Below, piece by piece: positions 21,639 to 47,386 of a stretch of 64,000 nt of DNA; the stretch's first letter is position 1; each line of letters starts with the position of its first letter. The stretch comes from Nitrosomonas sp. Nm34. Its GTDB lineage: Bacteria; Pseudomonadota; Gammaproteobacteria; Burkholderiales; Nitrosomonadaceae. The stretch spans positions 62,001 to 126,000 of the forward strand of contig NZ_FORD01000001.1 in assembly GCF_900113925.1 (NCBI RefSeq), written 5' to 3'. Below the pieces are notes generated by a model. That model saw only the letters and a program-made list of their open reading frames with translations. It did no database searches and was not told the DNA's origin. A program made the translations under genes and the position numbers.

Positions 21639-22661
21639 TTAATCAGATAAAATATCTTCAGGTAAACTATCTGCCAAATACTGTAATAATTTTCGATGGG
21701 GTTTCAAACCTTCAGAGGCGACCTGCTCAAAAAGCGCTAAGACAGCACGGTTTAGCGGACAGGGGAAGTCCCCCGCTAGCCGGACCAGATAACCATTATA
21801 GGCCTCTATTTCCGTGCAACAGCAATGGGCTGAAATATCTGGCGCCATTGAACAATAGGTACCGCGTAGTGATGGTCGGAAAAACATGGCCATCAATTTA
21901 CTTAAAGCGGTCATGCGTAGAATGTGGGAAACGGTATCAGGATGAAATGGCCCAATGCGAGCAAGTTTAATGTGCCCATGCTTGAGAATGGCATAATTTT
22001 CGCGCAGCATACCAAAAAATAGCTTTTTAGCTAACTGATCAGTCAATAATGCGCCATTATCGAGGCCAGCTACAGCCGCAAGCGGAGAAATAGCGGCATT
22101 GTACATAAGCTTGGTCGCTTTATATGGTTGAATATCTTTAACCAATTCAACAGGAAATAATTTAGCTTTCCCCAGTGCTTTAGCCAATGATGCGATTTCA
22201 TCCCATTCCCTAGCAGTGACAGATCGACGTGTCCCAATGTGGAGGGTACCCGGCCTTGTAATTCGAGTTTCGGCACGATCGCGCAGACATTCGGACACAA
22301 AAGAAGCAATCCCTTCGCAAGCATGATTGCGCCGTTCTAGCTCCGCATCAAAGCCATTCTGAATCGGTACCAGAAAAGCATCATCAGGCAGTCGTGCGAG
22401 TACTTCTGGATTGTTATAGGTTTTGGTGCAGAGCAAAATAAAGCCTTCATTTGGCGCAACCCACTCATTAAAAGCCATGAAAGGTACAGCTTGTGTTCCT
22501 ATTCCAACTACTGTTACCCCATTCTTTTTACCTTCGATTATTTTGTTAGGATGGCTGTCAACCAATACTACGGTATATCCCTCTCGTGACAAGGCCCATC
22601 CAACTGCGGCACCAATACCTCCAGCCCCTAAGATATGAATGGGTTTATTAAGTAAATTCAT
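21639..22661 (-). CDS. Ketopantoate reductase family protein (ApbA/PanE-like)
   Basis: This 340-residue protein starts with the NADPH-binding Rossmann motif HILGAGGIGAAVGWALSREG and carries an ApbA C-terminal helical domain from about residue 180 (KATKLMYNAAISPLAAV). The reaction for true PanE is 2-dehydropantoate to pantoate in pantothenate synthesis. It is longer than a standard PanE (about 300), and no pan genes lie near, so it may be a paralogue acting on another 2-oxo acid. It is 23 bp upstream (in transcription direction) of the AI-2E-type permease gene and may be cotranscribed with it. Confidence 0.85.
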   Translation of the reverse strand: MNLLNKPIHILGAGGIGAAVGWALSREGYTVVLVDSHPNKIIEGKKNGVTVVGIGTQAVPFMAFNEWVAPNEGFILLCTKTYNNPEVLARLPDDAFLVPIQNGFDAELERRNHACEGIASFVSECLRDRAETRITRPGTLHIGTRRSVTAREWDEIASLAKALGKAKLFPVELVKDIQPYKATKLMYNAAISPLAAVAGLDNGALLTDQLAKKLFFGMLRENYAILKHGHIKLARIGPFHPDTVSHILRMTALSKLMAMFFRPSLRGTYCSMAPDISAHCCCTEIEAYNGYLVRLAGDFPCPLNRAVLALFEQVASEGLKPHRKLLQYLADSLPEDILSD

Positions 22662-23247
22662 TAACTTTATTATAAATATAGATTCAGAAAATAAAATTTA
22701 CGATAAATTGCACACAAGATACACAAAATAATTCAAACTAAAATCCACTAGTTTAGATATATAGATAAGAGCTGTTCTCATGCTCATCGTAGCTAAATTT
22801 ATTTATCCTAAGTGGTTAATTTTTTAGTTTTGCCAAGCCAATTTCAAATTAATCCAGTTTTTTTAAAACTAGCGCAATCTGCCAATTAATGAAATACGCG
22901 CAAATACGTAGGCATTGATTATTATTGATAGTGATCAAAAAATCGTTAATTTAAGCTATGCAGTCTATCAAAAGGTGGGATGCATTTTGTGTTTTAGGTA
23001 AATCTTTCCTCAGCAATTAAAGGTACTCGGATTCAACCGCTTGTTCTTATTTAAGAAATATCCCTCAATCATAAGTCATTTAAATTAATTACTTTTTTAG
23101 GCATAGCATTTTAAAAATGCGTTTATTGTATAGTAAGTTTTCCTAAAGATAAGTCGATTTTTCTGACGATTGAATTATTATAGTTACCAAATCTCTCCTA
23201 GTTAAAAAAGTTTTCGCTCACAATCCAGGGGGTAACTTTTCCCACTG
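22662..23247. other. AT-rich intergenic region
   Basis: Nearly 590 bp without a credible gene. The only structured item is palindrome copy 4 at 22894 with its following 50-bp conserved stretch. The rest is strongly AT-rich with many short stops in all frames. Confidence 0.5.
22894..22911. repeat. Intergenic palindrome-like motif, copy 4
   Basis: ATACGCGCAAATACGTAG matches copy 3 in the right half and in the next 50 bp (TTATTGATA, then AAATCGTT). It lies about 230 bp upstream of the ApbA/PanE-like gene. Confidence 0.5.
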
Positions 23248-23816
23248 CTAATTCTTTATAGCCAGATTGTAGCCACGCTGAAATAGCTGACGCATGTACT
23301 CAGACTCAGTGTCGAACTCTTCTAGATGAGGAGTATTGAAATCTTTTGGAATAAAAGCAAGATTAAAATCAATGCCATCTCGCTGAGTCTGGCTATAGAG
23401 CTTGTATAAATCACCAATACCTTGATTTTGAATCAATGAAGTAATAGCGCGGGCAGCAATTGACAAAGCGCGCCGCTCGACTTCCGCCCAGTCAGGATCC
23501 AGACGGGCATTTCGTATCATGACTTGAAATGGCCAAGAAATTGGCAGGAGACAGATTAGCAGAAAGCAGATTAGCACTTTGGCCTTTTGTGGTAAGGTAA
23601 GCTTGTTCCCGGTTAAACTTTCGATGGCATCTTGAGTGAACTCAGGCATGTCAGAGCGTACTACGTAACATACTCCAGGTAAGCCGACCATTTCTGCTTT
23701 CTCAGACCATACCTGGGGAACGGCAGGTTGACGCATAGGTGCGGAACAACCTGAAAGTATGAAGGTTATACCGGCAAGTACTGAAATAAGTGCAAATAAT
23801 GAATATACTTTATCAT
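23248..23816 (-). pseudogene. Putative lipoprotein gene with frame break in its signal peptide
   Basis: The main frame runs from 23736 (ATG) to 23248, 162 residues. Upstream in the same frame it encodes a lipoprotein signal, KVYSLFALISVLAGITF-ILSGC, but this part has no ATG, GTG or TTG before an upstream TAA. The only suitable ATG (23814-23816, preceded by GAGG) is in another frame and reaches TAA after 16 codons. Adding one A to the AAA run at 23809-23811 would join ATG-ATA to the signal peptide. So this is either a frameshifted gene or a sequencing error; otherwise a shortened protein starts at 23736. The family is unrecognised; a hydrophobic stretch (AKVLICFLLICLLPISW) lies mid-protein. 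Confidence 0.55.
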
Positions 23817-24435
23817 ATCCACGCTCTTATCCTCATATCATACATATTGCCATTATATTTTATCTTCAGAAATCCTATGTTATTACTTTTGGTTCCATTA
23901 GATTGGCAGATATATGGCGTAGATGACAGAACCGAGACATTGATGAGTTTGCTTGATCAGATAAATTAATGATATGGGCATCATACTCTCTCTACTTATT
24001 CAGCTAAAAAGAAAAAATCATGAACATGCGTAAAAAAATATGTCGCCAGTTACACCCTTATATTCGGGACTAAAACATCTAAGGTTGAATATTCCTTGAG
24101 TATGGTGATTTTTTAAGATACGTATTTCATTTTGCTCTGCGGGCGGAGCTATATATTAAGGCAGCCCAACAGGCTTATGCTGAGTTGCAAAAGCTAAAGG
24201 TTGCGTAAAATCAGTACTTAAATTCTTTTTTTCTTCAGAAAAAATAAGAAAAGCTATACCCTAATATCACTTTATTTATGTAACAATAAAGTAGATCGCA
24301 GAAATGATTTTGATTATATTGATCTGATTTTCCTGCGACCCATTGCATAAATTCTATGTAGTTATATTTGCTTTATATATTGAAGCCCTGATTGTTGAAC
24401 GAATAAATATATTTTTATTCCCTTGGAGAAAGCAT
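23817..24435. other. Intergenic region with a possible gene-end remnant
   Basis: AT-rich DNA of about 600 bp. From about 24090 to the TAA at 24206-24208 the plus strand encodes an open tail without a start codon, ending AAQQAYAELQKLKVA. It reads like the C-terminal fragment of a lost gene but I cannot name the family. Nothing else stands out. Confidence 0.35.
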
Positions 24436-25236
24436 ATGATGAATATCCATAAACAAATAGCAGCCTCAGTTTTTACAGCACCAATAATGATTTTATATTT
24501 TTTAGGAGTATTTATGACGGGATGTGCTGCAATTCAGTCAGATTCCAATCAAGCCAAATCAAAAGTTGTCGAACCTGCTCCCGATACTGCTTTTATTGAA
24601 CATCCTGAACTGCAGCAGCAGCCAACTGATTTACCTTTTCAGAAAGTATGGATCAAACCTGATTTTGACAAAAGCCGCTATCAGGAATTGATCGTCGCGC
24701 CTGTCAATACTCAGTACATGTTTGAAATGGATTGGCTGCATAAAGCCAGCAGCGCTAGCTGGTTCAATGATGTGAAAAAAGACATCGAAGAGTTGGCGGT
24801 ATATTTCCATGACCAAGTAGTAAAAGCTTTCAAGGAAGATCCCAACCACCGTTTTAAAGTCATTGAGAGTATTGATCAGCGTCAACAACCAGCACTCCGC
24901 CTGGAACTGGCGCTGATCGAGATTAATCCCTCGACGCCGGTGTTGCACGCAGCCGGATGGCTGACGCTTGGTGGCGGCACTGCGGCAGGCGCAATCAACA
25001 AGCGGCGGGCAGCATTCGAAGCCCGCTTGCGTGATCTACAAACTGACGAAATAGTCGCTACTTTCGCCGATCGCGATATGCAGGATGTAGGTCCGCTTGA
25101 TCTGACGCGCCTGACCTGGTATGGTCCAACAAAAGGCATTATGGATCGTTGGGCCAAACAGTTCGTCGAGGTCGCTAACCGAAAACCGGACGAAGTAGTG
25201 ACTGACCCGACAGCATTCACGCTGCGTCCATTCTAA
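24436..25236 (+). CDS. DUF3313-like lipoprotein
   Basis: Starting at 24436 (GGAGA 7 bases upstream) the product is 266 residues with a lipoprotein signal ending FMTGC. The mature part has the features of the DUF3313 type: an early strand RYQELIVAPVNTQYMF, a helix with ELAVYFHDQVVKAF, a strand LRLELALIEINPSTPVL, a Gly-rich segment GWLTLGGGTAAGA and a late DRWAKQFVEVANR. An in-frame start at 24343 would add about 30 residues before the signal and is unlikely. Function unknown; probably attached to the outer membrane. It faces the patatin-like gene tail to tail. Confidence 0.7.
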   Translation: MMNIHKQIAASVFTAPIMILYFLGVFMTGCAAIQSDSNQAKSKVVEPAPDTAFIEHPELQQQPTDLPFQKVWIKPDFDKSRYQELIVAPVNTQYMFEMDWLHKASSASWFNDVKKDIEELAVYFHDQVVKAFKEDPNHRFKVIESIDQRQQPALRLELALIEINPSTPVLHAAGWLTLGGGTAAGAINKRRAAFEARLRDLQTDEIVATFADRDMQDVGPLDLTRLTWYGPTKGIMDRWAKQFVEVANRKPDEVVTDPTAFTLRPF

Positions 25237-25340
25237 CTAAGATAACGGCGGTATGTCTTAACCCTGCATAGGATGCGGGAATGTACAATACCCGCTGACA
25301 CGCGATCACCCAACAAGATCACCACATTGGGAATTTCGTC

Positions 25341-26528
25341 TCAATAACGGCGCTCCTTTATCGCCTCCAATGCCCAAGTGGGAATATCGCCAAGGTTGGG
25401 TGGAACGGTCGACCAGGGATCGGCCTGCTTCCCGAGCGCACGACCCGTATCAAATGCCGCACGCATCTGTTCCGGATCAAAGGCGAGTGGATCCTTTCCA
25501 ACGTTTACGCTGTCTGGGATCTCAACTATTTTGAAGTTGTAGCCTAGGAGCTGAGTCCCGACATAGGATCGCGTCAAAGCCGTTTGCATAGACTGGTCCA
25601 TCATCACGCTAACCGTCGTGGCTGCCACGTCGCCGATGGCTCTGCGCAAGGCCTTGGGAGGATTCTTAAGCCTGCCATTAGAAATCAGATACACATTACC
25701 TGGACCATACAGCGGAGGCTTGGGCCGCTTTGTCAACCCCATCCCTGGGATAACAACATTCGAACGGGCGGCCCCATCGATGAACAGATGACCATCGATT
25801 TCCACCGGCGGAAAGACGATAGGGAATGATGCAGAGGCGAGCAATACCTCACGATAAAGCTTGAGGTTTCCGTCCTTCGCGATTAGCGTCATATCCCAGA
25901 TCCAGGTCTGGCCGTAATCGACGTTGGTCGTGCCCACAAACAGGAGCCGGTTGTCGTCGTAAGCGGCAGCCACGCGTGCTAAGGTCTCCGCAGTGATGTG
26001 TTTGGCGATGAGCGCTCGAAGCGGTGAGGTGTCTGACAGCGAATCAGCGCCGAACGCGAGGCTGAAGATACTTCTGTCCCGATAGATGTCTTTCTTGGTG
26101 ACTTGCGTGTACATCTCTTCGAGATGCACGTCATCGGCCGGGGTGCCGAGCAGAGCGTGGGTCGCCAGTAAAGCGCCGGTGCTCACACCTGCGACGACAT
26201 CGAACTCGGGCCGTTGACCACTTTCGCGCCAACCAGCCAGGAAGCCAGCACCAAAGGCACCATTTTGGCCGCCGCCTGAGAGGGACAGTACATTGAGGGC
26301 ATGCCCACGTTTACGCTCTCGGTTACGTATAACAGCCTCGCTGCTACCCGACGTAAGCGTAGCGTAGAGGGGCGAAACCTGGTCTGGATTCAGCGGAGCA
26401 TGTGCATTCGGCAACGCGGCATATGCCGGAGCCTTTTGTGATAGCACTCGTTCCGGAGGTGATGCACATCCAGCCAGGAGCAGCGCTACCATAATACCGT
26501 CGAGAATAATGAACTTTCTGAGTCTCAT
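25341..26528 (-). CDS. Patatin-like phospholipase, lipoprotein
   Basis: This 395-residue protein has a lipoprotein signal (LLLAGC, Cys about residue 21). The patatin features are in order: oxyanion-hole LSGGGQNGAFGAGFLAGW, nucleophile elbow GVSTGAL (Gly-X-Ser-X-Gly) and the dyad Asp in FIDGAARSNV. Such enzymes deacylate phospholipids or other acyl esters. The lipid anchor places it at a membrane face, most likely the periplasmic side of the outer membrane. Higher GC than the DNA to either side suggests a separate origin from the AT-rich neighbours. Confidence 0.9.
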   Translation of the reverse strand: MRLRKFIILDGIMVALLLAGCASPPERVLSQKAPAYAALPNAHAPLNPDQVSPLYATLTSGSSEAVIRNRERKRGHALNVLSLSGGGQNGAFGAGFLAGWRESGQRPEFDVVAGVSTGALLATHALLGTPADDVHLEEMYTQVTKKDIYRDRSIFSLAFGADSLSDTSPLRALIAKHITAETLARVAAAYDDNRLLFVGTTNVDYGQTWIWDMTLIAKDGNLKLYREVLLASASFPIVFPPVEIDGHLFIDGAARSNVVIPGMGLTKRPKPPLYGPGNVYLISNGRLKNPPKALRRAIGDVAATTVSVMMDQSMQTALTRSYVGTQLLGYNFKIVEIPDSVNVGKDPLAFDPEQMRAAFDTGRALGKQADPWSTVPPNLGDIPTWALEAIKERRY

Positions 26529-27106
26529 GCGCTCCCTCCTGCTAGCCCGGCAACCACATCTCTAAATGAATTTATCCTCGCACTGCTCTACAGATCTATG
26601 CGAACTGATGACACAAGTCTACTCTTTGATTTATTGGCAGTCTAATATTAATTAGGCAGATTATTTGAGGATTTATTGAAAAATTGGTGTGCTGGTTTTG
26701 GCATGAAGCAGTCATTTCAATTATGTAGATTGTCAGTGTTTATCCAATTTAATCCTTCTTTGAGGCGTTTTTCGGTTGCGCTGTAAAGCGTTTCAGAAAT
26801 TCCTCTTTCGTTTAGTGCTCCAGGCTTAGTAAGCGAAGTCGCGTTGGGCTTAGGCGAAATAATTCCCACATTATCACCCCTCCAGGGGCACCTGAAACAC
26901 ACGGGATGAACTACCATATGCCCTCCCGCAAGCGCCCCCCGCAGCGACCGACTATTCGCGCCTGTGGGTCAGTTTGTCCCCTACCCGTTCCCCCAAAACT
27001 GCGTAGTGCTGGCTAACCGCGTCAGGCCATCGTTTAACCTGTTTTGCGCCATACAGTGTTTCCTCCTGTTGAATTAGAAAGCAAAAGATACAGGTTAGGG
27101 GATACA
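26529..27106. other. Gene-free region carrying repeat copy A
   Basis: No supported gene. The right half holds one copy of a diverged repeat (about 26825-26985) whose partner is at 28263-28425. The left part (26560-26760) is AT-rich and unremarkable. Confidence 0.5.
26825..26985. repeat. Diverged direct repeat, copy A
   Basis: About 160 bp align with 28263-28425. Shared blocks include TGGGCTTA, CCCACA, CCTCCAGGGG, CGGGATGA, CCGACTAT and GTTTGTCCCCT versus GTTTGTGCCCCT. On the minus strand both copies can be read as a similar peptide (PWRGDNVGIISPKPNA in A, PWRDNSVGTIPLKPSA in B), so the repeat may derive from a coding element. I do not recognise the family. Confidence 0.6.
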
Positions 27107-27997
27107 TTATTTGATTTCGATGCGAAGTATTTCAGAGGTGTCCATATCGTTATCAGTCACACAGGCAATTTCAAGCAAGTTCTCTTGCACTTGCAAAATC
27201 GCAATCCCCTCGATTTTTACGGGTGCGATCGAGCCGTTCGACTCGACGGGAACAACCCAGAGAATTTCCTTTCCCTGCAACAATCCGATAAAACTTCCGA
27301 GGGTTACGCCATCGTCAATCTCATTATCCGTATCTTCGACGGAGGCAGCAAACAAAATCGAATCGTTCCACGTCAGCGCGGCAGAAAAGCCCGCATAACG
27401 GTTACTGATTTTGGGGAGAGTAAAGGTGGAGACCTGTGGAATAGGTGCAAGCGAGATTGATCCGTCGAGGTAATTCATGAAAGTCGCCAATGGATATTGC
27501 ATGAGCGCATTGATGCCGGAGATATTGCCACGCTGAAAAAGCAAAACGGCATCACGCGTGGTAGTAGCACCTTCCAGGTTTGGTTTTTGTGTGCCGAGAA
27601 TGGTGGGGGCAGCGCGAAGAATATCATATAACGCAGTGAGAGAAATGAGGCGCATGTTTTGCGGCGACGCTGGGTCGGTTACATCCACGCGATAGCAGAT
27701 GTCACGTGTGGGCGTTTTGCTGCCGGAACCAAAACAGAGCAATTCCTGTTTACCATGCCATTCAACCACCAAGCACATGGCTTCCAAATCCGGTTTGATG
27801 GCTTTGGGAATCCGATCTCCTGAGCGAATATCTGAAGGAAATAGGCGGGCTGTCCCAACGACGTTCCAACACAAATCAAGACGATACAAATCGGGTGAAT
27901 CGTCTGAGACAATATAATAATAATTGCCGATGCGCTCGACACCCGATGCAGATTGCAAACCCTGCAGAATAATGTGATTGCGAATGGAAGCATGCAT
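27107..27997 (-). CDS. Unknown protein, probable beta-propeller (DUF6929-like)
   Basis: This 296-residue protein has no signal peptide. It opens with LQSASGVERIGNYYYIVSDDSPDLYRLD, followed by IPKAIKPDLEAM. That pattern (a Gly-x-Asp-type strand, then I-x-K-x-x-K-x-D-x-E) matches uncharacterised propeller proteins now labelled DUF6929; I hold this assignment loosely. Repeated strand-turn units such as RDAVLLFQRG and WNDSILFAASVED support a beta-propeller. It lies alone between the two copies of a diverged repeat (A at 26825, B at 28263), which may mark its mobility. Confidence 0.65.
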   Translation of the reverse strand: MHASIRNHIILQGLQSASGVERIGNYYYIVSDDSPDLYRLDLCWNVVGTARLFPSDIRSGDRIPKAIKPDLEAMCLVVEWHGKQELLCFGSGSKTPTRDICYRVDVTDPASPQNMRLISLTALYDILRAAPTILGTQKPNLEGATTTRDAVLLFQRGNISGINALMQYPLATFMNYLDGSISLAPIPQVSTFTLPKISNRYAGFSAALTWNDSILFAASVEDTDNEIDDGVTLGSFIGLLQGKEILWVVPVESNGSIAPVKIEGIAILQVQENLLEIACVTDNDMDTSEILRIEIK

Positions 27998-29010
27998 GGT
28001 AGATTAGCCCTGATCTAATTGCTCATATAGAGAAGAAGCATAACTCCGGTAATCGTTCCTGCCCGGCGCGATAGGGACAATAAATGCCCCTTTTCATAAG
28101 GGCCGGACATATCAGCAGACGTTTTGGTTGTCAAACTGACTGATGCGGCGGGAAAATAGGTCTCCCTGCTACACGACGAAATGGCAAGATGCGCCGATCG
28201 CATACGCGCATTAACCATGCTGAGCGATTACACGACCGATGCTCACTGTTGATGAGTACGAGAGCTCAAGCGGAGCCGCGCTGGGCTTAAGCGGAATAGT
28301 CCCCACACTATTGTCCCTCCAGGGGCCATTGGGAAAGCGCGGGATGATTGCCTCCATGCCCGCCCCGCGACCACCCCGCAGCAGCCGACTATGCATGCAT
28401 GACGGGGCGGTTTGTGCCCCTCTCATTCAAACCGCAGGGAGTGGGCCTATTTGCATCCCACGGTACGATTCAGAGTCCGATTGTGGACACTTCCTTGAAT
28501 AACATAGCTTTATTTTGGCCAATACACTGCTTGTTACCTCCTGCACATCAACGCAAGGCATCTATCTTTCCGAGTGTATCTGATTTATGCTCGCTATAGA
28601 CAAACCAGTTAGAAATGATTCAAAGAGTATTCTCATTATTCCATCGAACACAAATGGACACAGGTCAAGACACTACGTAAATAACAAAGCCGAACCGTCG
28701 AGATGCTCTTCCAGTCCTGTACATTCTGAATCATACTTAACTTGTTAGGCGATAAAAAAGCTGAAGGAATAAAAAAGTATGCAAATGCATGATTGACCTT
28801 CTATTTGCTAGTCCTTAGCATCCATAACATAATGTGGAAGAACTCGTGAGCGCAAGGTATTCAATAAGAGAGTTTCTCTAGATACTTGTTTTGTGTGAAA
28901 GTGATTCTGAATAGTAAAAACTTGGACTAAATCTTATCTGACACAGATACTCAGTCATATCAGCAATTGTACAGTTTGGCCTGAGCTAGCACATATTAGG
29001 AGTAAAAATT
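27998..29010. other. Gene-poor region with repeat copy B
   Basis: About 1 kb without a gene that I can support. A 67-codon minus frame at 28015-28218 abuts repeat copy B and may be a decayed gene end; its sequence is unfamiliar. 28430-29010 is AT-rich, with no coding character, and should contain the promoter of the small gene at 29011. Confidence 0.45.
28263..28425. repeat. Diverged direct repeat, copy B
   Basis: Partner of copy A at 26825, same orientation, about 1.4 kb away. Both contain an internal hairpin of the form CCCTCCAGGG. Divergence of roughly 30 percent means the duplication is old or the two came in separately. Confidence 0.6.
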
Positions 29011-29313
29011 ATGTCAACCGATTTTACTAACTGGCAGATTTTTCAGAGTAATGAAGATGTACTGATCGTTCACTCTACATTAAATGGTGATCAGCTTACT
29101 GGAACCGTTGTTACTGATGATGAAGAACTTGTGGGGCAATTGAATGGATCAGTGACCGGAACCGGATTTGGATCCATCGCTGACTTTAAGATCTTCTGGG
29201 ATGATGGAAGTGTTGGTTCATACTTAGGTACGCTTGATCATGATATACGCCTAGTCGGCGTCACTTTTTCTGTTGACGATCCCGTCACCCAAGAAACATT
29301 TGTTAGCAGTTAA
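29011..29313 (+). CDS. Small beta-rich protein of unknown function
   Basis: One hundred residues, acidic, no signal peptide. AGGAG lies 9 bases before the ATG. The sequence alternates short strands and Gly turns: GDQLTGTVVTDD, LNGSVTGTGFGSIADFKIFWDDGSVGSYLGTLD, then IRLVGVTFSVDD. The repeated form G-x-x-x-G-x-x-F/I-W-x-D-G-S-x-G-x-Y-x-G resembles small beta-barrel proteins, but I cannot name a family. The good ribosome site and strand regularity argue for a real gene, which stands alone in AT-rich DNA. Confidence 0.6.
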   Translation: MSTDFTNWQIFQSNEDVLIVHSTLNGDQLTGTVVTDDEELVGQLNGSVTGTGFGSIADFKIFWDDGSVGSYLGTLDHDIRLVGVTFSVDDPVTQETFVSS

Positions 29314-29469
29314 TACTTAGCAGCCTTTGCTCCTATAAGTTTAACTGTATATTCAGCTTAACGTATATCTTTCATCAGAGAGTTATTATTTTCTAACTCT
29401 CTTCCGTGCTTGTCCGAACCAATTGAATTATTAGAGTTTCGCTATATCAGCCCCCCCCAAGCTCTTCCA

Positions 29470-29705
29470 ATCGTGATGTGATGATTCTTATGTCGAACTC
29501 ACGTTACTCTAGCAACTCTCCTTGGTCATTAATGACCAGGTGCAGCTTGAACCCATAATACTAAACCACACATACTAATCCACACTGGTCTTTCCCCGGA
29601 CAGCACTCTGCCATTATTTTATGCTACTAGATGCGATGGTTGTGGCACACACTGATCTTGATCGAATCAATGAAACTGATCCCACAACAGCGTCCAAAGC
29701 GACTG
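29470..29705 (-). pseudogene. IS982-family transposase remnant
   Basis: On the minus strand, two blocks in different frames spell typical IS982 transposase segments: CGISFIDSIKISVCHNHRI (about 29665-29610) and, after a frame break, YGFKLHLVINDQGELL (about 29560-29513). In intact members these lie in this order, and the DDE catalytic Asp residues are in FIDS and VIND. Both ends of the gene are missing and stops occur between the blocks, so this is a dead fragment. Confidence 0.7.
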
Positions 29706-29711
29706 GTCATT

Positions 29712-29808
29712 TCATTTCCAAATCAAAACTAACTCTGCCGGCTTCACATTGTCGTATTATTGATACTGTCTACGGCTCGCCTTCGCGTCATTTTTAATTT
29801 AGAAATGG
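29712..29808 (-). mobile_element. MITE-like element, copy 1
   Basis: A 97-bp element that aligns without gaps to the reverse complement of 55997-56093 (about 84 of 97 bases identical by eye). Its ends are near-inverted repeats, CATTTCCAAATCAAAA and TTTTTAATTTAGAAATG. It has no coding capacity. It sits directly beside the IS982 remnant, but a transposase matching its ends is not present in the window. Confidence 0.75.
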
Positions 29809-30069
29809 AACTACTTCAGTTTAAAAAATATGTATGCTTTTTTGTGTCCACGATGCGGAAACCAGAGTTATTTTGTAAGGGTTTTATCATAATATTTGTG
29901 GAACAAAGTTGATTATAATGAAATCTAAATTGATATGTATCCATAAAAATGGAACGTGATAGAAGGCAATTTGTAGTGAAAGATTTCATCCCAGAACATA
30001 ATATATTTCTCCGTTTTGGGGATTTAATTTTAGTTAGACTTCACCCAAACTATATCTCAAGGATGAACA

Positions 30070-30654
30070 GTGAATAATGGCTCTTTTTCAGGTGACCCTC
30101 GTACTCTTTGGCTGACGGAAAGCAGCGATGACCGTCAGATGCAAGTACTCGAGCTTTTCACATACACTGATCCGGATGGCAAGGTGTGGGATGCACCTGA
30201 GGGTGTGATTATTAATGGTGCTTCTATCCCTCGGCCGCTGTGGGTCCTAGTCGGGTCGCCTTATACCGGTGATTACCGACGTGCTTCTATTGTTCATGAT
30301 GTGGCGTGCGACAGAGCAAAATCAGACAGGAAGTTACGTCGGGCTGCCGACCGAATGTTCTACCACGCTTGCCGAGCCGGAGGCTGCTCAGTCGCGCAAT
30401 CGATTATTTTCTACCTCGGTGTGCGCATCGGAGCGATCTGGCCACTTGTGCCACAGTGGCGCCCAGCTATGCACTTGGCTGATTCCGGTGCTCGACTTAG
30501 TAAGTCAGCAGCTGAAGAGCGCATGGAGGCAGATTTTCGCCTAGCTGGCGAAATGATTTTCTCGCAGGGAGAAGTTGATAACGCGGATGAGATCGAGCGC
30601 AGGACAGATGATGCTTTAAGCAAGTTGACATCTATGGAAGTACAAAAGTTTTAG
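30070..30654 (+). CDS. DUF1353 family protein
   Basis: This 194-residue protein starts at GTG (30070) with AAGGA 8 bases upstream. The DUF1353 core is clear: VWDAPEGVIINGASIPRPLWVLVGSPYTGDYRRASIVHDVACD, then a helix with RRAADRMFYHACRAGGC. Members are common in phages and near phage genes, with unknown function; conserved Asp and His in VHD suggest a metal or hydrolytic site. The Glu/Asp-rich C-terminal 50 residues are less conserved. No other phage gene is nearby, so this may be a stranded phage-derived gene. Confidence 0.8.
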   Translation: MNNGSFSGDPRTLWLTESSDDRQMQVLELFTYTDPDGKVWDAPEGVIINGASIPRPLWVLVGSPYTGDYRRASIVHDVACDRAKSDRKLRRAADRMFYHACRAGGCSVAQSIIFYLGVRIGAIWPLVPQWRPAMHLADSGARLSKSAAEERMEADFRLAGEMIFSQGEVDNADEIERRTDDALSKLTSMEVQKF

Positions 30655-40991: not shown

Positions 40992-41157
40992 CTATAATAA
41001 TGCGACTTTCATAATTCGCCCTAAAATGCGATGATTTGTATATTCCACGGCTCCATAAAATATTTTATAAATAAACTTATTGCTGAAAGCGTATAGCCAT
41101 AAGGCGTTATCGTATGTTAAACGCTATCTGCTTCAGGTTGTAACACCATCACAAAAC

Positions 41158-44100
41158 ATGTCGAACCCATTTTTTGATCAGCCCATCCTGAATTCACCCT
41201 ACGACTCTCCTGGTCGACATTGGGAGCTGGATGCCTCGGGCCAGCCAACGCAACGCATCGTTGAAAGCCGTCGACCTGCTGAATTCATTACGCCTATCCC
41301 CAAACCCAAAAAGCAGAAGACGGCACCGGCGCAGCAAGATCTCATCTTCGATGAAGGAAAAGGGCTCTCTTCCGAAAAGCAGCAGTATGATCCCACTTCC
41401 ATCATCAACGAAATCCGCAAACAGGTGGATACCTGGCGTTCCTTGCCCTCAAGTCAATGGCAGGTTACGCCGGAAACCATGCGACTTCTTCAGCATTGGC
41501 GGCACCATGATTTCGGTGGGATCCGACCGTTTTTCTGCCAGATAGAAGCCGTCGAGACTACGATCTGGTTAACCGAGGTTGCTGCGCTTTCAGTTGCTGG
41601 CAAACGCATCCTTGAGCACCTGACCAGTGCCAATCGGGATGCCAACCCGGAGATTCAACGGCTTGCCTTGAAGTTAGCGACCGGTGCCGGTAAAACCACT
41701 GTCATGGCCATGCTCATCGCCTGGCAGACAATCAATGCGGTGCGCCGCCCTGCGAGTAAATGCTTTACGCGTGGTTTCCTCATCGTCGCACCCGGGCTCA
41801 CCATCAAGGACCGTCTACGCGTATTACTGCCCAATGACCCGGATAGTTACTACGCGAGCCGGGAGCTAGTGCCTCATGATTTTCTGGAGGATATCAAACG
41901 CGCCAAAATCGTCATCACCAACTATCATGCTTTCAAGCTGCGGGAGCGTGTGGAACTTTCCAAAGGCAACCGCGCCCTGCTGCAAGGCCGCACCGGCAGC
42001 AAACCCCAGACCACTGAAAACGAAGGCCAGATGATCCAGCGTGTCATGTCTCAACTCATGGGCATGAAAAATATCCTCATTCTCAATGACGAAGCGCATC
42101 ACTGCTACCGAGAGAAGCCAAACGATCTGAATGAGGAGGAAGAGAAAGCACTCAAGGGCGAAGAGAGAAAAGAGGCCGAAAAGAATAATGAGGCTGCGCG
42201 GCTTTGGATCTCCGGCCTGGAAGCGGTAAACCGTAAGCTTGGCGTGGCGCGCGTGATTGATCTATCCGCCACCCCGTTTTTCCTGCGGGGTTCCGGCTAT
42301 GCAGAAGGCACACTATTCCCGTGGACCATGAGTGATTTCTCGCTCATGGATGCCATCGAGTGCGGTATCGTCAAGCTACCGCGTGTGCCGGTAGCCGAGA
42401 ATATTCCCGGTAATGAAATGCCAGTTTATCGCAACCTCTGGGAGCACATCCGTAGAGACATGCCCAGGAAAGGTCGGGGCAGCGGCGCCATGCTCGACCC
42501 GCTCAAGCTGCCCACCCGCCTGCAGACAGCCCTTCAGGCGCTGTACGGCCACTACGACAAAACCTTTCACCTGTGGCAAGAGAACCAGATCTCAGTTCCA
42601 CCTTGCTTCATTATAGTCTGTCAAAACACAGCCATCTCCAAGCTTATTTATGACTACGTCTCAGGTTTTTACCAAAAGCAGCAGGATGGGACGCCTCATC
42701 TTCACAATGGAATGCTGCCGCTCTTCCGCAACTTCGACGAAATTACCGGTACTCCGCTGCCACGCCCGAACACGCTGCTGATCGACAGTGAACAACTGGA
42801 AGCCGGGGATGCGCTCGATGATCATTTCCATGCCATGGCGGCGGACGAGATCGAGCGGTTCCGTCGCGAAATCATCGAGCGCACGGGTGACGCACGTGCA
42901 GCCGCAAACCTCACCGATCAGGAATTGTTGCGCGAAGTCATGAATACTGTCGGCAAGCCTGGACAACTTGGTGCCCATATCCGCTGCGTGGTGTCTGTCT
43001 CGATGCTGACCGAAGGCTGGGATGCCAACAATGTCACCCATATTCTCGGTGTCCGCGCTTTCGGTACTCAGCTCTTGTGCGAACAGGTCATCGGCCGGGC
43101 GCTACGCCGCTGGTCCTACGATCTTAACGAAGCGGATCTGTTCGATGCCGAATATGCCGACATCTTCGGCGTGCCATTCGATTTTACTGCCAAGCCCGTC
43201 ATTGCCCCACCGCCGAAGCCGCGTGAGACAATTCAGGTCAAGGCCGTGCGCCCTGAACGCGATCACCTCGCCATTCGCTTTCCGCGGGTCGAAGGTTATC
43301 GCGTCGAGCTGCCCGAGGAACGACTCACCGCCACTTTCAACGATGATTCCATGCTGGAGCTCACCCCTGATCTGGTCGGTCCGTCCATTACCCATAACCA
43401 GGGCATCATCGGCGAGGCGGTCGTCATGACACTCGACCACCTGGAAGGCATGCGCCCATCCTCGCTGCTGTTCATACTGACCAAGCATCTTCTCTATACC
43501 AAATTTCGTGATCCCGGCGACGAGCCGAAATTACACCTGTTCGGCCAGCTCAAGCGCATCACCAAGCAATGGCTTGAAACCTGCCTCACGTGCAAAGGGG
43601 GAACCCATCCGGGACTGCTGGTCTATCAGGAACTGGCGGACAGGGTGTGCAATCGCATCATGGCTGGCATCACCCGCGCGCTGGAAGGTCAGCGCCCCAT
43701 CAAAGCCTTGCTCGCCCCTTATAATCCGGTTGGCTCTACCAGCCAGGTCCGTTTTTCTACTTCGCGTATGGAACGCTGGGAAACCAGCGGCCCGCCGCCC
43801 AGGAATCCGATCAACTGGGTCATTCTGGACAGCGACTGGGAAGCCGAGTTCTGCCGCGTGGCCGAAGCCCATCCCAGAGTCATTGCCTACACCAAGAATC
43901 ACAATCTCGGCTTTGCAGTGCCTTACCGCTATGGCGCTGAAGTGCGCACCTACCTGCCTGATTTCATCGTATTGGTAGATGACGGACGCGGCCGTGATGA
44001 TCCACTACATTTGGTCGTCGAGATCAAAGGCTACCGCCGTGAAGACGCCAAAGAAAAGAAAACCACCATGGAGACTTACTGGATACCCGGTGTCAACAAC

Positions 44101-44241
44101 CTGAAAAGCTATGGCCGCTGGGCTTTTGCTGAATTCACCGATGTATTCCTGATAGATACCGACTTTAAGGCAAAAGTGGAAAACACGTTCAACCACATGA
44201 TCGAAACCGCAACGAATCACGCTGCGGCCGGGAGCAAATAG
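41158..44241 (+). CDS. Type III restriction endonuclease subunit Res (DEAD/DEAH helicase-nuclease)
   Basis: This 1027-residue protein starts at ATG 41158 (MSNPFFDQPILNSPY, the usual start of this family); an extended frame from 41080 is less likely. Helicase motifs are in order: LATGAGKTTVMAMLIAW (Walker A), LNDEAHHCY (DEAH), LSATPFF (motif III), EQVIGRALRR (motif VI). The C-terminal nuclease has YLPDFIVLVDD and LVVEIKGYR, a PD-(D/E)xK site. It cuts when translocation complexes meet, and needs the Mod subunit for site recognition. The gene is intact. It is the first gene of a two-gene RM operon; mod starts 2 bp after it. Confidence 0.93.
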   Translation: MSNPFFDQPILNSPYDSPGRHWELDASGQPTQRIVESRRPAEFITPIPKPKKQKTAPAQQDLIFDEGKGLSSEKQQYDPTSIINEIRKQVDTWRSLPSSQWQVTPETMRLLQHWRHHDFGGIRPFFCQIEAVETTIWLTEVAALSVAGKRILEHLTSANRDANPEIQRLALKLATGAGKTTVMAMLIAWQTINAVRRPASKCFTRGFLIVAPGLTIKDRLRVLLPNDPDSYYASRELVPHDFLEDIKRAKIVITNYHAFKLRERVELSKGNRALLQGRTGSKPQTTENEGQMIQRVMSQLMGMKNILILNDEAHHCYREKPNDLNEEEEKALKGEERKEAEKNNEAARLWISGLEAVNRKLGVARVIDLSATPFFLRGSGYAEGTLFPWTMSDFSLMDAIECGIVKLPRVPVAENIPGNEMPVYRNLWEHIRRDMPRKGRGSGAMLDPLKLPTRLQTALQALYGHYDKTFHLWQENQISVPPCFIIVCQNTAISKLIYDYVSGFYQKQQDGTPHLHNGMLPLFRNFDEITGTPLPRPNTLLIDSEQLEAGDALDDHFHAMAADEIERFRREIIERTGDARAAANLTDQELLREVMNTVGKPGQLGAHIRCVVSVSMLTEGWDANNVTHILGVRAFGTQLLCEQVIGRALRRWSYDLNEADLFDAEYADIFGVPFDFTAKPVIAPPPKPRETIQVKAVRPERDHLAIRFPRVEGYRVELPEERLTATFNDDSMLELTPDLVGPSITHNQGIIGEAVVMTLDHLEGMRPSSLLFILTKHLLYTKFRDPGDEPKLHLFGQLKRITKQWLETCLTCKGGTHPGLLVYQELADRVCNRIMAGITRALEGQRPIKALLAPYNPVGSTSQVRFSTSRMERWETSGPPPRNPINWVILDSDWEAEFCRVAEAHPRVIAYTKNHNLGFAVPYRYGAEVRTYLPDFIVLVDDGRGRDDPLHLVVEIKGYRREDAKEKKTTMETYWIPGVNNLKSYGRWAFAEFTDVFLIDTDFKAKVENTFNHMIETATNHAAAGSK

Positions 44242-44243
44242 TT

Positions 44244-47150
44244 ATGACGCATAAAACACAACCTCAAAAAACCGTCGAAGCGCTCAGTCACAAGGAAGAT
44301 AAACGCAAAAACATCCCGACGGCCGAATATCAATCGGTGTTGGAGCAGGAACAGAAGCAGCCCAGGATGCTGCGTTATCCGCGCAATACCGACCTTGACC
44401 CGCAACTGGTATGGCGCGGCAAGGACACGCAGGATTGGTCGGATCTGGTGGTGCATGCCTCGCCGCTCTATATTCAGGAAAAAGTGCATCCCAAGGCGCT
44501 GATCGAGGATTTGCTCAAAGAAACCAAAGCGCGCGATCAAATAGCACAGCCCGAACAATTCGACTTGTTCGCCGACTTCAACGGCATCCCTGACGGCGCC
44601 GACAAGACCGAGTTCTATCAGCACGAACAGAATTGGACCAACCGCATGATCCTCGGCGATTCGCTGCAAGTGATGGCAAGCCTCGCAGAACGCGAAGGGC
44701 TGCGCGGGAAAGTGCAGTGCATCTATTTCGACCCGCCCTACGGCATCAAATTCAACAGCAACTTCCAGTGGAGCACTACCAGTCGCGATGTGAAAGACGG
44801 TAACGCCGCACACATCACACGTGAACCCGAGCAGGTCAAGGCATTTCGTGACACTTGGCGCGACGGTATTCACTCCTACTTGACTTATCTGCGCGACCGG
44901 CTCATGGTGGCACGCGATTTATTGACTGATTCGGGTTCGATTTTTGTACAAATTGGCGATGAGAATGTGCATCGGGTGCGAATGTTGATGGATGAGGTGT
45001 TTGGGGAAAAGAACTTTGTTAGTGTAATTACAACAAGCAAGACATCCGGGTTCACAAGTGCACTATTGTCCAATATTAATGATTTTATTCTATGGTATTC
45101 AAAAAACATTAATTATGTGAAATTCCAACAAATTTATTCTGATAAATCTGCAGGTGAAATAGGTGGAACAAAATATAAGCCTGTATCTTCCTTTGCTTCC
45201 TTATCTATGTATTGCCTTTCTCCAGAAGAACTTATTGTTGATAGCGAAGTAACCTCTGAGGGAGCCCAGGTTGGGGCAGAGGTTCATGAGTTCAGTTTCC
45301 AAGGAAAAGTTTATTTTCCTCCTAGTACAAGGCATTGGACTGTAAAAATTGATGATCTGTATCGAGTTGATAAAGCCGGTAGGATAATGCGATCTAAAAC
45401 AAGACCTCGATATATCAGAAAACTAAATGACTTTAGTGTAATTCCTATATCAAATATATGGACAGATATAGGCGGAATTCAAAGTCGAACTGATCCCAAA
45501 GTTTATGTTGTACAAAGTGCATCGGAATTAGTAAAGCGTTGCGTTCTTATGTCTACAAATCCTGGCGACCTGGTGCTTGACCCGACCTGCGGCTCCGGCA
45601 CCACTGCTTATGTCGCTGAACAATGGGGCCGCCGCTGGATCACGATCGACACCTCGCGCGTCGCGCTGGCACTGGCGCGTGCGCGCATCATGGGTGCGCG
45701 TTATCCCTATTATCTGTTAGCCGACAGCGCAGAAGGCCGGTTGAAAGAAGCGGACATCACGCGCACCGCCCCTTCCAGCAAACCTACCTAAGACAACATA
45801 CGTCACGGCTTCGTTTATGAGCGCGTGCCGCATATCACGCTCAAATCCATCGCCAATAACGCCGAAATTGACGTCATTTGGGACAAGTACCAGGCAAAAC
45901 TGGCACCGCTGCGTGCGCAGTTGAATAAGGCATTGGGTACCTCCTGGGAAGAATGGCAAATTCCGCGTGACCTCTCCAAAGACGTTCCCGCAAAGGCTGC
46001 ATCGGAGCGCCTTCATCCGGGGGCCGAAATCCAGCAAGCCGACAAAGACTGGGCCCCGGCCTCCGCCGGGGCGACGGAAGAAGCGGAAGCCTTACATGCT
46101 CAGTGGTGGCAAATGCGTATCGCCCGGCAGAGGGAAATCGATGCTTCCATTGCTGCCAAGGCTGAGTATGAATATCTCTACGACAAGCCCTATGAGGACA
46201 AGAAGAAGGTGCGCGTGGCCGGTCCATTTACCGTAGAGAGTCTGAGTCCCCACCGCGTGCTCGGGGTGGATGAGAATGATGAGCTGATCGATCCGTACAA
46301 GATGGCACAACCAGATGCCGACTATGCAACGGGTCATCGTTTCGAGCAGATGATCCTGGAAAACCTCAAAACTGCAGGCGTGCAGCAAGCGCACAAGGAA
46401 GACCGCATCACCTTCACTGCCATTACCGGCTGGCCGGGCAACTATATTTGCGCGGAAGGCAAATACGCGGAAGGGGTGGCAGATGAATTACGTGAAAAAC
46501 GTGCAGGTATTTTTATCGGCCCCGAGTTCGGCACCGTTTCCCGCCCTGATCTGGTCGATGCTGCACGCGAAGCGGGTGATGCCGGCTTTGATGCGCTCAT
46601 TGCCTGCGCCTTCAACTACGAGGCGCAGGCGGGCGAGTTCCACAAGCTGGGCCGCATCCCGATTCTCAAGGCGCGCATGAATGCTGACCTGCACATGGCC
46701 GGCGAACTCAAGGCCACCGGCAAAGGCAATCTGTTCGTCATCTTCGGCGAACCCGACATCGACATCCACGATGAAGCAAATGGCCTTATCCGCGTGAAAG
46801 TAAATGGAGTCGATGTGTTTGACCCCAGTACGGGTGACATCCGCAGCGATGGCGCCGAAGGCATTGCCTGCTGGTTTATCGATACCGACTATAACGGCGA
46901 AAGCTTTTTCGTGCGCCATGCTTACTTCCTCGGCCAGAACGATCCCTATAAAGCGCTCAAGACCACCTTGAAAGCCGAGATTAACGAAGAAGCGTGGGCT
47001 ACCCTCAACAGCGACTGCTCACGGCCTTTTCCCAAGCCTCAGTCAGGCCGTATTGCGGTGAAGGTGATCAACCACTTGGGTGATGAAGTGATGAAGGTGT
47101 TCAAGGCGGGTGAGGTTCGGCCTGCTGAAACCGCTCAAGTATTTCGTTGA
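44244..47150 (+). pseudogene. Type III DNA methyltransferase Mod, interrupted by an in-frame stop
   Basis: One frame runs from 44244 to 47150 (968 codons) but is broken by TAA at 45789-45791, codon 516. The first part holds the beta-class N6-adenine methylase motifs YFDPPYGIKFNS (DPPY) and VLDPTCGSGTTAYVAEQWGR (AdoMet loop). The second part continues in frame with DNIRHGFVYERVPHITLKSIANN and carries the conserved C-terminal domain of this long Mod family. One base change (CAA or GAA to TAA) explains the break. A restart at GTG 45825 could yield a separate C-terminal fragment. Codons about 255-435 are much more AT-rich than the rest and form the recognition domain. A palindromic repeat is inserted in frame at about 46006-46079. 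Confidence 0.9.
46006..46079. repeat. Palindromic repeat inserted in frame within mod
   Basis: The centre is a perfect 8-bp stem GCCCCGGC-CTCC-GCCGGGGC (46053-46072). The surrounding codons (HPGAEIQQADKDWAPASAGAT) read like the common proteobacterial intergenic repeat translated, and break the conserved stretch that normally leads to HAQWWQMR. It adds about 25 codons without changing the frame. Confidence 0.65.
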
Positions 47151-47386
47151 GCAGCAGCCAGGTGAGGCGGCAGGTTATCTTCGCAAGGTTTCATAAAGAC
47201 GATAGCGCCCCGATAGCATCCGAGCAGCGTCCGGAGAGCGCTCTTGTGAAACTTTGCTACGATCCATCTCCAGCCGATCTGTGCAGAATCCCTTAAAATA
47301 CGCGCTCCAACCCATCTACAGCGCTACAACTTCCAACCGGATGCAAAATTTTTCATCACATCCTTGCACCCGTTTAGCTGCCTGAC

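Follow-up and report, generated by a model that had tools for sequence, protein, structure and literature searches.

A stop codon interrupts the methyltransferase gene (mod) of a Type III-like restriction–modification operon in the window, the 64,000-nucleotide stretch of the Nitrosomonas sp. Nm34 genome analyzed here, and the restriction gene (res) immediately upstream is open throughout. As the initial annotation had recognized, the TAA lies in frame, with the parts on either side of it (44244–45791 and 45825–47150) sharing one reading frame. We consider it probable (roughly 0.7) that the stop is a recent nonsense mutation located after the methylase motifs and that, by analogy with characterized Type III systems, restriction would have been lost without self-cutting. 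The features of the operon are collected in Table 1.

Table 1. Features of the res–mod operon, in window coordinates
Feature	Position	Strand	Description
res	41080..44241	+	BPTD_3080-family Res (SF2 helicase and nuclease); single open frame, 1053 aa
mod, first piece	44244..45791	+	515 aa with motif IV and motif I; ends at the TAA
Recognition region, between motifs IV and I	44951..45560	+	limits approximate, set by eye
In-frame TAA	45789..45791	+	variable family column: R, H, Y, Q, F, C or S in 80 relatives
mod, second piece	45792..47150	+	452 open codons; conserved C-terminal region of the family
GTG, first possible in-frame restart	45825..45827	+	anti-SD duplex energy −1.7 kcal/mol
Palindromic REP-like insert	46000..46080	+	in frame, within the second mod piece; limits approximate

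The two genes form a pair on the + strand, in the order res–mod and separated by 2 bases. Res scores 1343 bits against the NCBIfam profile NF046055 (curated cut-off 800) and covers positions 1–969 of its 970, which places it in the BPTD_3080 family and confirms the earlier description of res as intact. It matches PF04851 (ResIII) above cut-off at 40.5 bits, and motifs that we take to be of helicase and nuclease type were located in it by reading their positions from the sequence. Res thus combines SF2 helicase motifs with an endonuclease domain according to ResIII, NF046055 and these motifs, with a PF19778 (RE_endonuc) match that falls just below its cut-off (21.5 bits against 23.4). Judged from its sequence, the operon is a Type III-like restriction–modification system in which a Res of the BPTD_3080 type is paired with a long Mod (~900–1030 aa). 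Elsewhere in the genome there is no Res of this kind, and no methylase reaches the PF01555 cut-off; one weaker PF01555 match (23.8 bits) occurs in a 315-aa frame on another contig (C49). A second Mod able to serve Res was sought in the genome with the N-terminal piece, with the C-terminal piece and with PF01555 at its cut-off, and none was found.

The base composition of the operon is uneven. GC content is 55% in res and 56% in the second mod piece versus 47% for the whole window, and the recognition region drops to 36.6%, versus 54% and 63% on either side. Because the operon is richer in GC than the window and the recognition region is poor in GC, these contrasts suggest that the operon was acquired by transfer and has a mosaic origin, and the contrast with both flanks suggests that the recognition region was replaced via recombination. 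A promoter and terminator scan returned fewer sites than were found in shuffled sequences. Elsewhere in the window, when ORFs of at least 80 aa are chosen greedily, five gaps exceeding 500 bases separate them within positions 22661–30070. The rest of the window does not show this pattern, which possibly reflects decayed genes or mobile DNA.

The mod frame comprises 969 codons (44244–47150), and the only stop before its end is codon 516. Motif IV (DPPYG) is found at residue 163 and motif I (DPTCGSGT) begins at residue 446, with the target recognition region between them and a PF01555 match spanning residues 157–476 of the first piece. This is the arrangement of a β-class amino-methyltransferase, and the EcoP15I Mod, Mbo45V and the 6k0w Mod are matched both by sequence and by the fold of relatives. 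A Pfam and NCBIfam profile search with the second piece gave no match. Both pieces match PADLOC PDLC03632, a Mod profile of 983 positions, and they do so in order: the best stretch for the first piece covers positions 76–561 (E 1.2e-208) and that for the second covers 624–982 (E 7.4e-198). The column occupied by the TAA directly precedes the highly conserved GFVYERVPH, and the frame is open from 45792, with an ORF of 441 aa when counted from the GTG. The peptide after the stop reads as the initial annotation gave it, and its assignment to the same family is upheld. In place of the uninterrupted Mod able to engage Res that characterizes a Type III system, this copy has two pieces parted by the TAA; it is a broken member of its family.

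Comparison with Mod homologs, a check that the initial annotation had proposed, indicates that the family is normally a single chain. The contig search used only the downstream mod piece as query, which avoids a bias against loci that are split at the stop, and of 567 relatives the best 80 were retained. In 79 of these 80 loci, BLAST places the counterparts of the downstream piece and of the sequence leading to the stop in one open frame. The remaining locus, L066 (4939–7389, from a Syntrophaceae bin), is an in-frame fusion of the end of Res to the end of Mod, as if formed by deletion, and an alignment shows its frame to be open at this position as well. Because all 80 loci are open across the stop point and the two pieces match one profile in order, their shared frame is more than a chance arrangement. 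The N-terminal part is truncated by the contig start in four loci (L052, L063, L067 and L074), and in two others (L030 and L069) the mod frame begins 115–128 bases inside the contig, which leaves room for a further break. Wherever Res is present in the related loci, and on the plasmids so annotated, its gene precedes mod on the same strand.

A survey that sampled 399 genomes evenly from the order, searched at E 1e-60 or better, gave matches in 14, the window's own included; the other 13 hold 14 systems. Judged by frame length alone, 12 of these 14 span the junction, 11 with frames of at least 904 aa and one with a frame of 692 aa. The other two start downstream of the junction: that of G148 at a contig end, and that of G163 (321 aa) within the C-terminal part. 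The initial annotation had also raised the possibility of two separate subunits divided at this point; none of the 80 loci (best 80 of 567) and none of the 12 readable systems in the survey has that arrangement, and we reject it as the normal state of the family. The state of other strains was a further proposed check, and among 36 genomes of the same genus only one (G025) has a close copy (73%), whose frame is uninterrupted at the stop position; in another four, only relatives at 33–34% are present.

Structure prediction places the stop in a linker. A first Mod model, based on 41 close relatives, was too poor for use (mean pLDDT 49), and a second drew on 99 sequences spanning two subfamilies, reached mean pLDDT 68 and pTM 0.41, and was consulted only on the linker and on the methylase fold. 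For L024, an intact relative of 910 aa, the residue equivalent to the stop, 505, is predicted to lie in coil between a helix (485–495) and a strand (513–519). Of the 20 best structural matches, 15 align as far as residues 603–609, beyond the stop, and the other five end by residue 472. A strand past the stop may therefore complete the methylase sheet; the model is weak in this region (pLDDT ~57). The fold matches listed cover the methylase part and are uninformative on the C-terminal fold, and a PDB sequence search with the C-terminal piece gave one chance-level match (E 0.13).

The sequence beyond the stop is little decayed. Departures were scored at family columns that are at least 95% conserved. 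The C-terminal piece departs at 5 of 234 such columns; the median among 79 relatives, each left out in turn, is 3, and nine of them have 5 or more. The N-terminal piece departs at 5 of 166 columns, a value that 7 of 71 relatives reach or exceed, and these departures, above those of most relatives, could reflect a general relaxation. No further stop or frameshift is present in mod after the TAA. The earlier statement that the family continues past the stop is supported, most of the conserved residues there being retained. If all five changes postdate the stop, the neutral divergence since then is below 0.019 per site (95% limit, equal rates), and the lesion, if inactivating, is younger than ~2% neutral divergence. 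On sequence grounds, decay this low is equally compatible with a recent mutation, an erroneous base and continuing selection on the gene.

Breaks in the BPTD_3080-type res–mod family are not rare. Of the 80 top-ranking loci out of 567, four (L012, L023, L032 and L080) have a mod gene broken at another point, and of the 71 that have Res, six (L004, L012, L017, L028, L031 and L066) carry it in more than one frame. From the ORF coordinates, single in-frame stops part the res pieces in L004 and L017 and the mod pieces in L023. L045 has no match to the first 424 residues of Res despite 1250 bases of upstream sequence, and a complete plasmid of Sphingomonas aliaeris carries mod in two frames with Res annotated whole. 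Some of these breaks may be sequencing errors. Protein relatives of the two pieces were also collected in an N set and a C set, each the best 120 of ~8000 and limited by length, with full-length Mods left out. In the N set, 12 of the 119 other proteins stop short of window residue 545, and nine of these 12 have tails that do not align; in the C set, 9 of 120 begin at or after approximately residue 491. P0124, a C-set protein named as Acidithiobacillus caldus, starts at the residue of GTG 45825. These ends and starts indicate that breaks occur near the linker, they do not give a frequency, and some will be contig ends.

The second mod piece also contains a REP-like insert whose reverse strand starts with a CGTC tag and whose hairpin has a predicted energy of −20.3 kcal/mol, resembling the CGTC-tagged REPs described in PMC3733652. 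The REP-like peptide was found by pattern in 14 of the 120 C-set proteins (best 120 of ~8000) and in L002; the degenerate version in the window was seen by eye. As the origin of the stop this insert is ruled out, lying ~210 bases downstream of the TAA and preserving the frame.

Three other explanations bear on the stop codon itself. A sequencing or assembly error, with the gene intact in the organism, is unlikely, and it would be compatible with the little-decayed sequence past the stop. The locus is known from a single assembly of 149 contigs, and the 515-aa protein is a singleton in the protein collection, with one member sequence from one contig. Nothing specific contradicts an error, but the lesion is a clean base change and not a homopolymer indel. 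The TAA might alternatively mark an OFF state of a phase-variable mod, the phase-like state considered in the initial annotation, and there is a parallel in MmyCI of Mycoplasma mycoides, a phase-variable type III system whose mod also ends early at a TAA (PMC3498834). In the MmyCI case as reported there, however, the stop follows a frameshifting AG repeat tract, whereas the lesion described here is an in-frame codon with neither a tract nor a change of frame. The region 41000–47200 has no homopolymer longer than 6, and its only tandem repeat is 2.1 copies of 8 bases at 47080–47096. With no simple repeat tract at which slippage could shift the frame, we reject phase variation, which is very improbable.

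A working Mod could also be assembled from two chains or by readthrough, with the C-terminal piece produced by restart at GTG 45825 or by misreading of the TAA and then joining the N-terminal piece. The conservation of the C-terminal piece, the predicted coil at the stop-equivalent residue and the existence of other proteins that start or end in this linker, such as P0124, are consistent with this arrangement. There is also a precedent in EcoP1, for which stop-codon misreading and, later, terminator-to-initiator shuffling were proposed in the control of Res synthesis (PMC3874151). Relatives normally split at this position are absent, however, from the 80 loci (best 80 of 567), and nothing that we found favors either readthrough or restart at the GTG. 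The anti-SD duplex energy of the GTG is equaled by 48% of random sites, compared with 2.8% for the mod start (−6.6 kcal/mol) and 12% for ATG 46113 (−4.3 kcal/mol), but this comparison does not discriminate restart sites, because the median of 25 chosen starts in the window is itself only −1.8 kcal/mol. We regard a working two-chain or readthrough Mod as a slightly more remote prospect than a sequence error.

The explanation that we prefer is a probably recent nonsense mutation in mod, past motifs IV and I. Translation would then yield a 515-aa fragment that has both motifs and the recognition region and lacks the C-terminal region of ~450 residues. By analogy with EcoP15I and EcoP1, Res would be left without a partner able to engage it, and restriction would be lost with no self-cutting. 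Res of EcoP15I relies on Mod both to recognize sites and for its stability. Mod of EcoP15I is reported to dimerize through its N-terminal and methylase domains, and one Mod subunit contacts Res through its C-terminal domain (PMC4490356). According to PMC3874151, Mod increased the level of Res in both EcoP1 and EcoP15, the mutagenesis of P1 lysogens described there yielded only r−m− or r−m+ types, and r+m− phage mutants, which exist and lie in mod, cannot lysogenize. Taken together, these observations imply that a Mod without its C-terminal region should lose restriction safely, with the role of that region carried over from the far shorter segment of EcoP15I (aa 539–644).

The initial annotation had proposed that the stop could silence the system without leaving Res active. 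By this analogy silencing is the likeliest outcome, and the complete absence of Mod is only one of its possible forms, because the stop lies beyond motifs IV and I. An alternative result is a fragment that methylates but cannot engage Res. There is a small chance that a single linker codon leaves a working methylation-only state, based on the 515-aa chain alone or on that chain together with a restarted or rarely read-through C-terminal chain. Res would then be uncoupled or rarely engaged, what had been a restriction system would serve only to mark DNA by methylation, and linker breaks would recur in the family since such a state is safe. Two of six characterized m4C type III systems required Res for methylation, as reported in PMC8259958.

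Among known systems, the operon corresponds to the BPTD_3080 family (NF046055; PADLOC MTase_III PDLC03632), with Res above cut-off, both Mod pieces matching in order and res upstream of mod on one strand; it differs in the in-frame stop of this mod copy. A literature search on ‘BPTD_3080’ returned no paper naming it, and a search on nonsense mutations in type III mod genes returned mostly unrelated papers. The β-class methylase motif order, the intervening TRD and the helicase–nuclease Res are shared with EcoP15I and EcoP1, and a 2-base gap between the genes is also reported for EcoP1 (PMC3874151). Unlike those systems, res precedes mod here, and the region following the methylase core is ~450 aa, compared with ~105 aa in EcoP15I (PMC4490356).

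Relatives of the operon occur in several other settings. On a Methylomagnum plasmid (L131, 739–9933), a similar res–mod pair adjoins genes annotated as a CBASS phospholipase and nucleotidyltransferase. A UvrD-type helicase/3′–5′ exonuclease follows mod in L091–L093 by annotation, and in L083 as a following open frame only; L092 and L093 also have an additional gene between res and mod. Mod relatives are present in 22 loci (L094–L115) on contigs classed as viral, and a search of phage records with the C-terminal piece gave no match. A distant relative of 1137 aa (P0349) carries PF04480 and PF18741 together with a methylase domain and is a possible Mod–nuclease fusion.

Overall, the lesion looks like a mostly ordinary gene loss. 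It fits the view that Res does no harm when it lacks a Mod able to engage it, and provides one clear and probably recent Type III-like case in which a full-length Mod has been lost and Res is still open. It also draws attention to a widespread Mod family with a large conserved C-terminal region that lacks any Pfam or NCBIfam match. For that family, the truncation amounts to a natural experiment that can show whether methylation depends on the C-terminal region or only restriction does.
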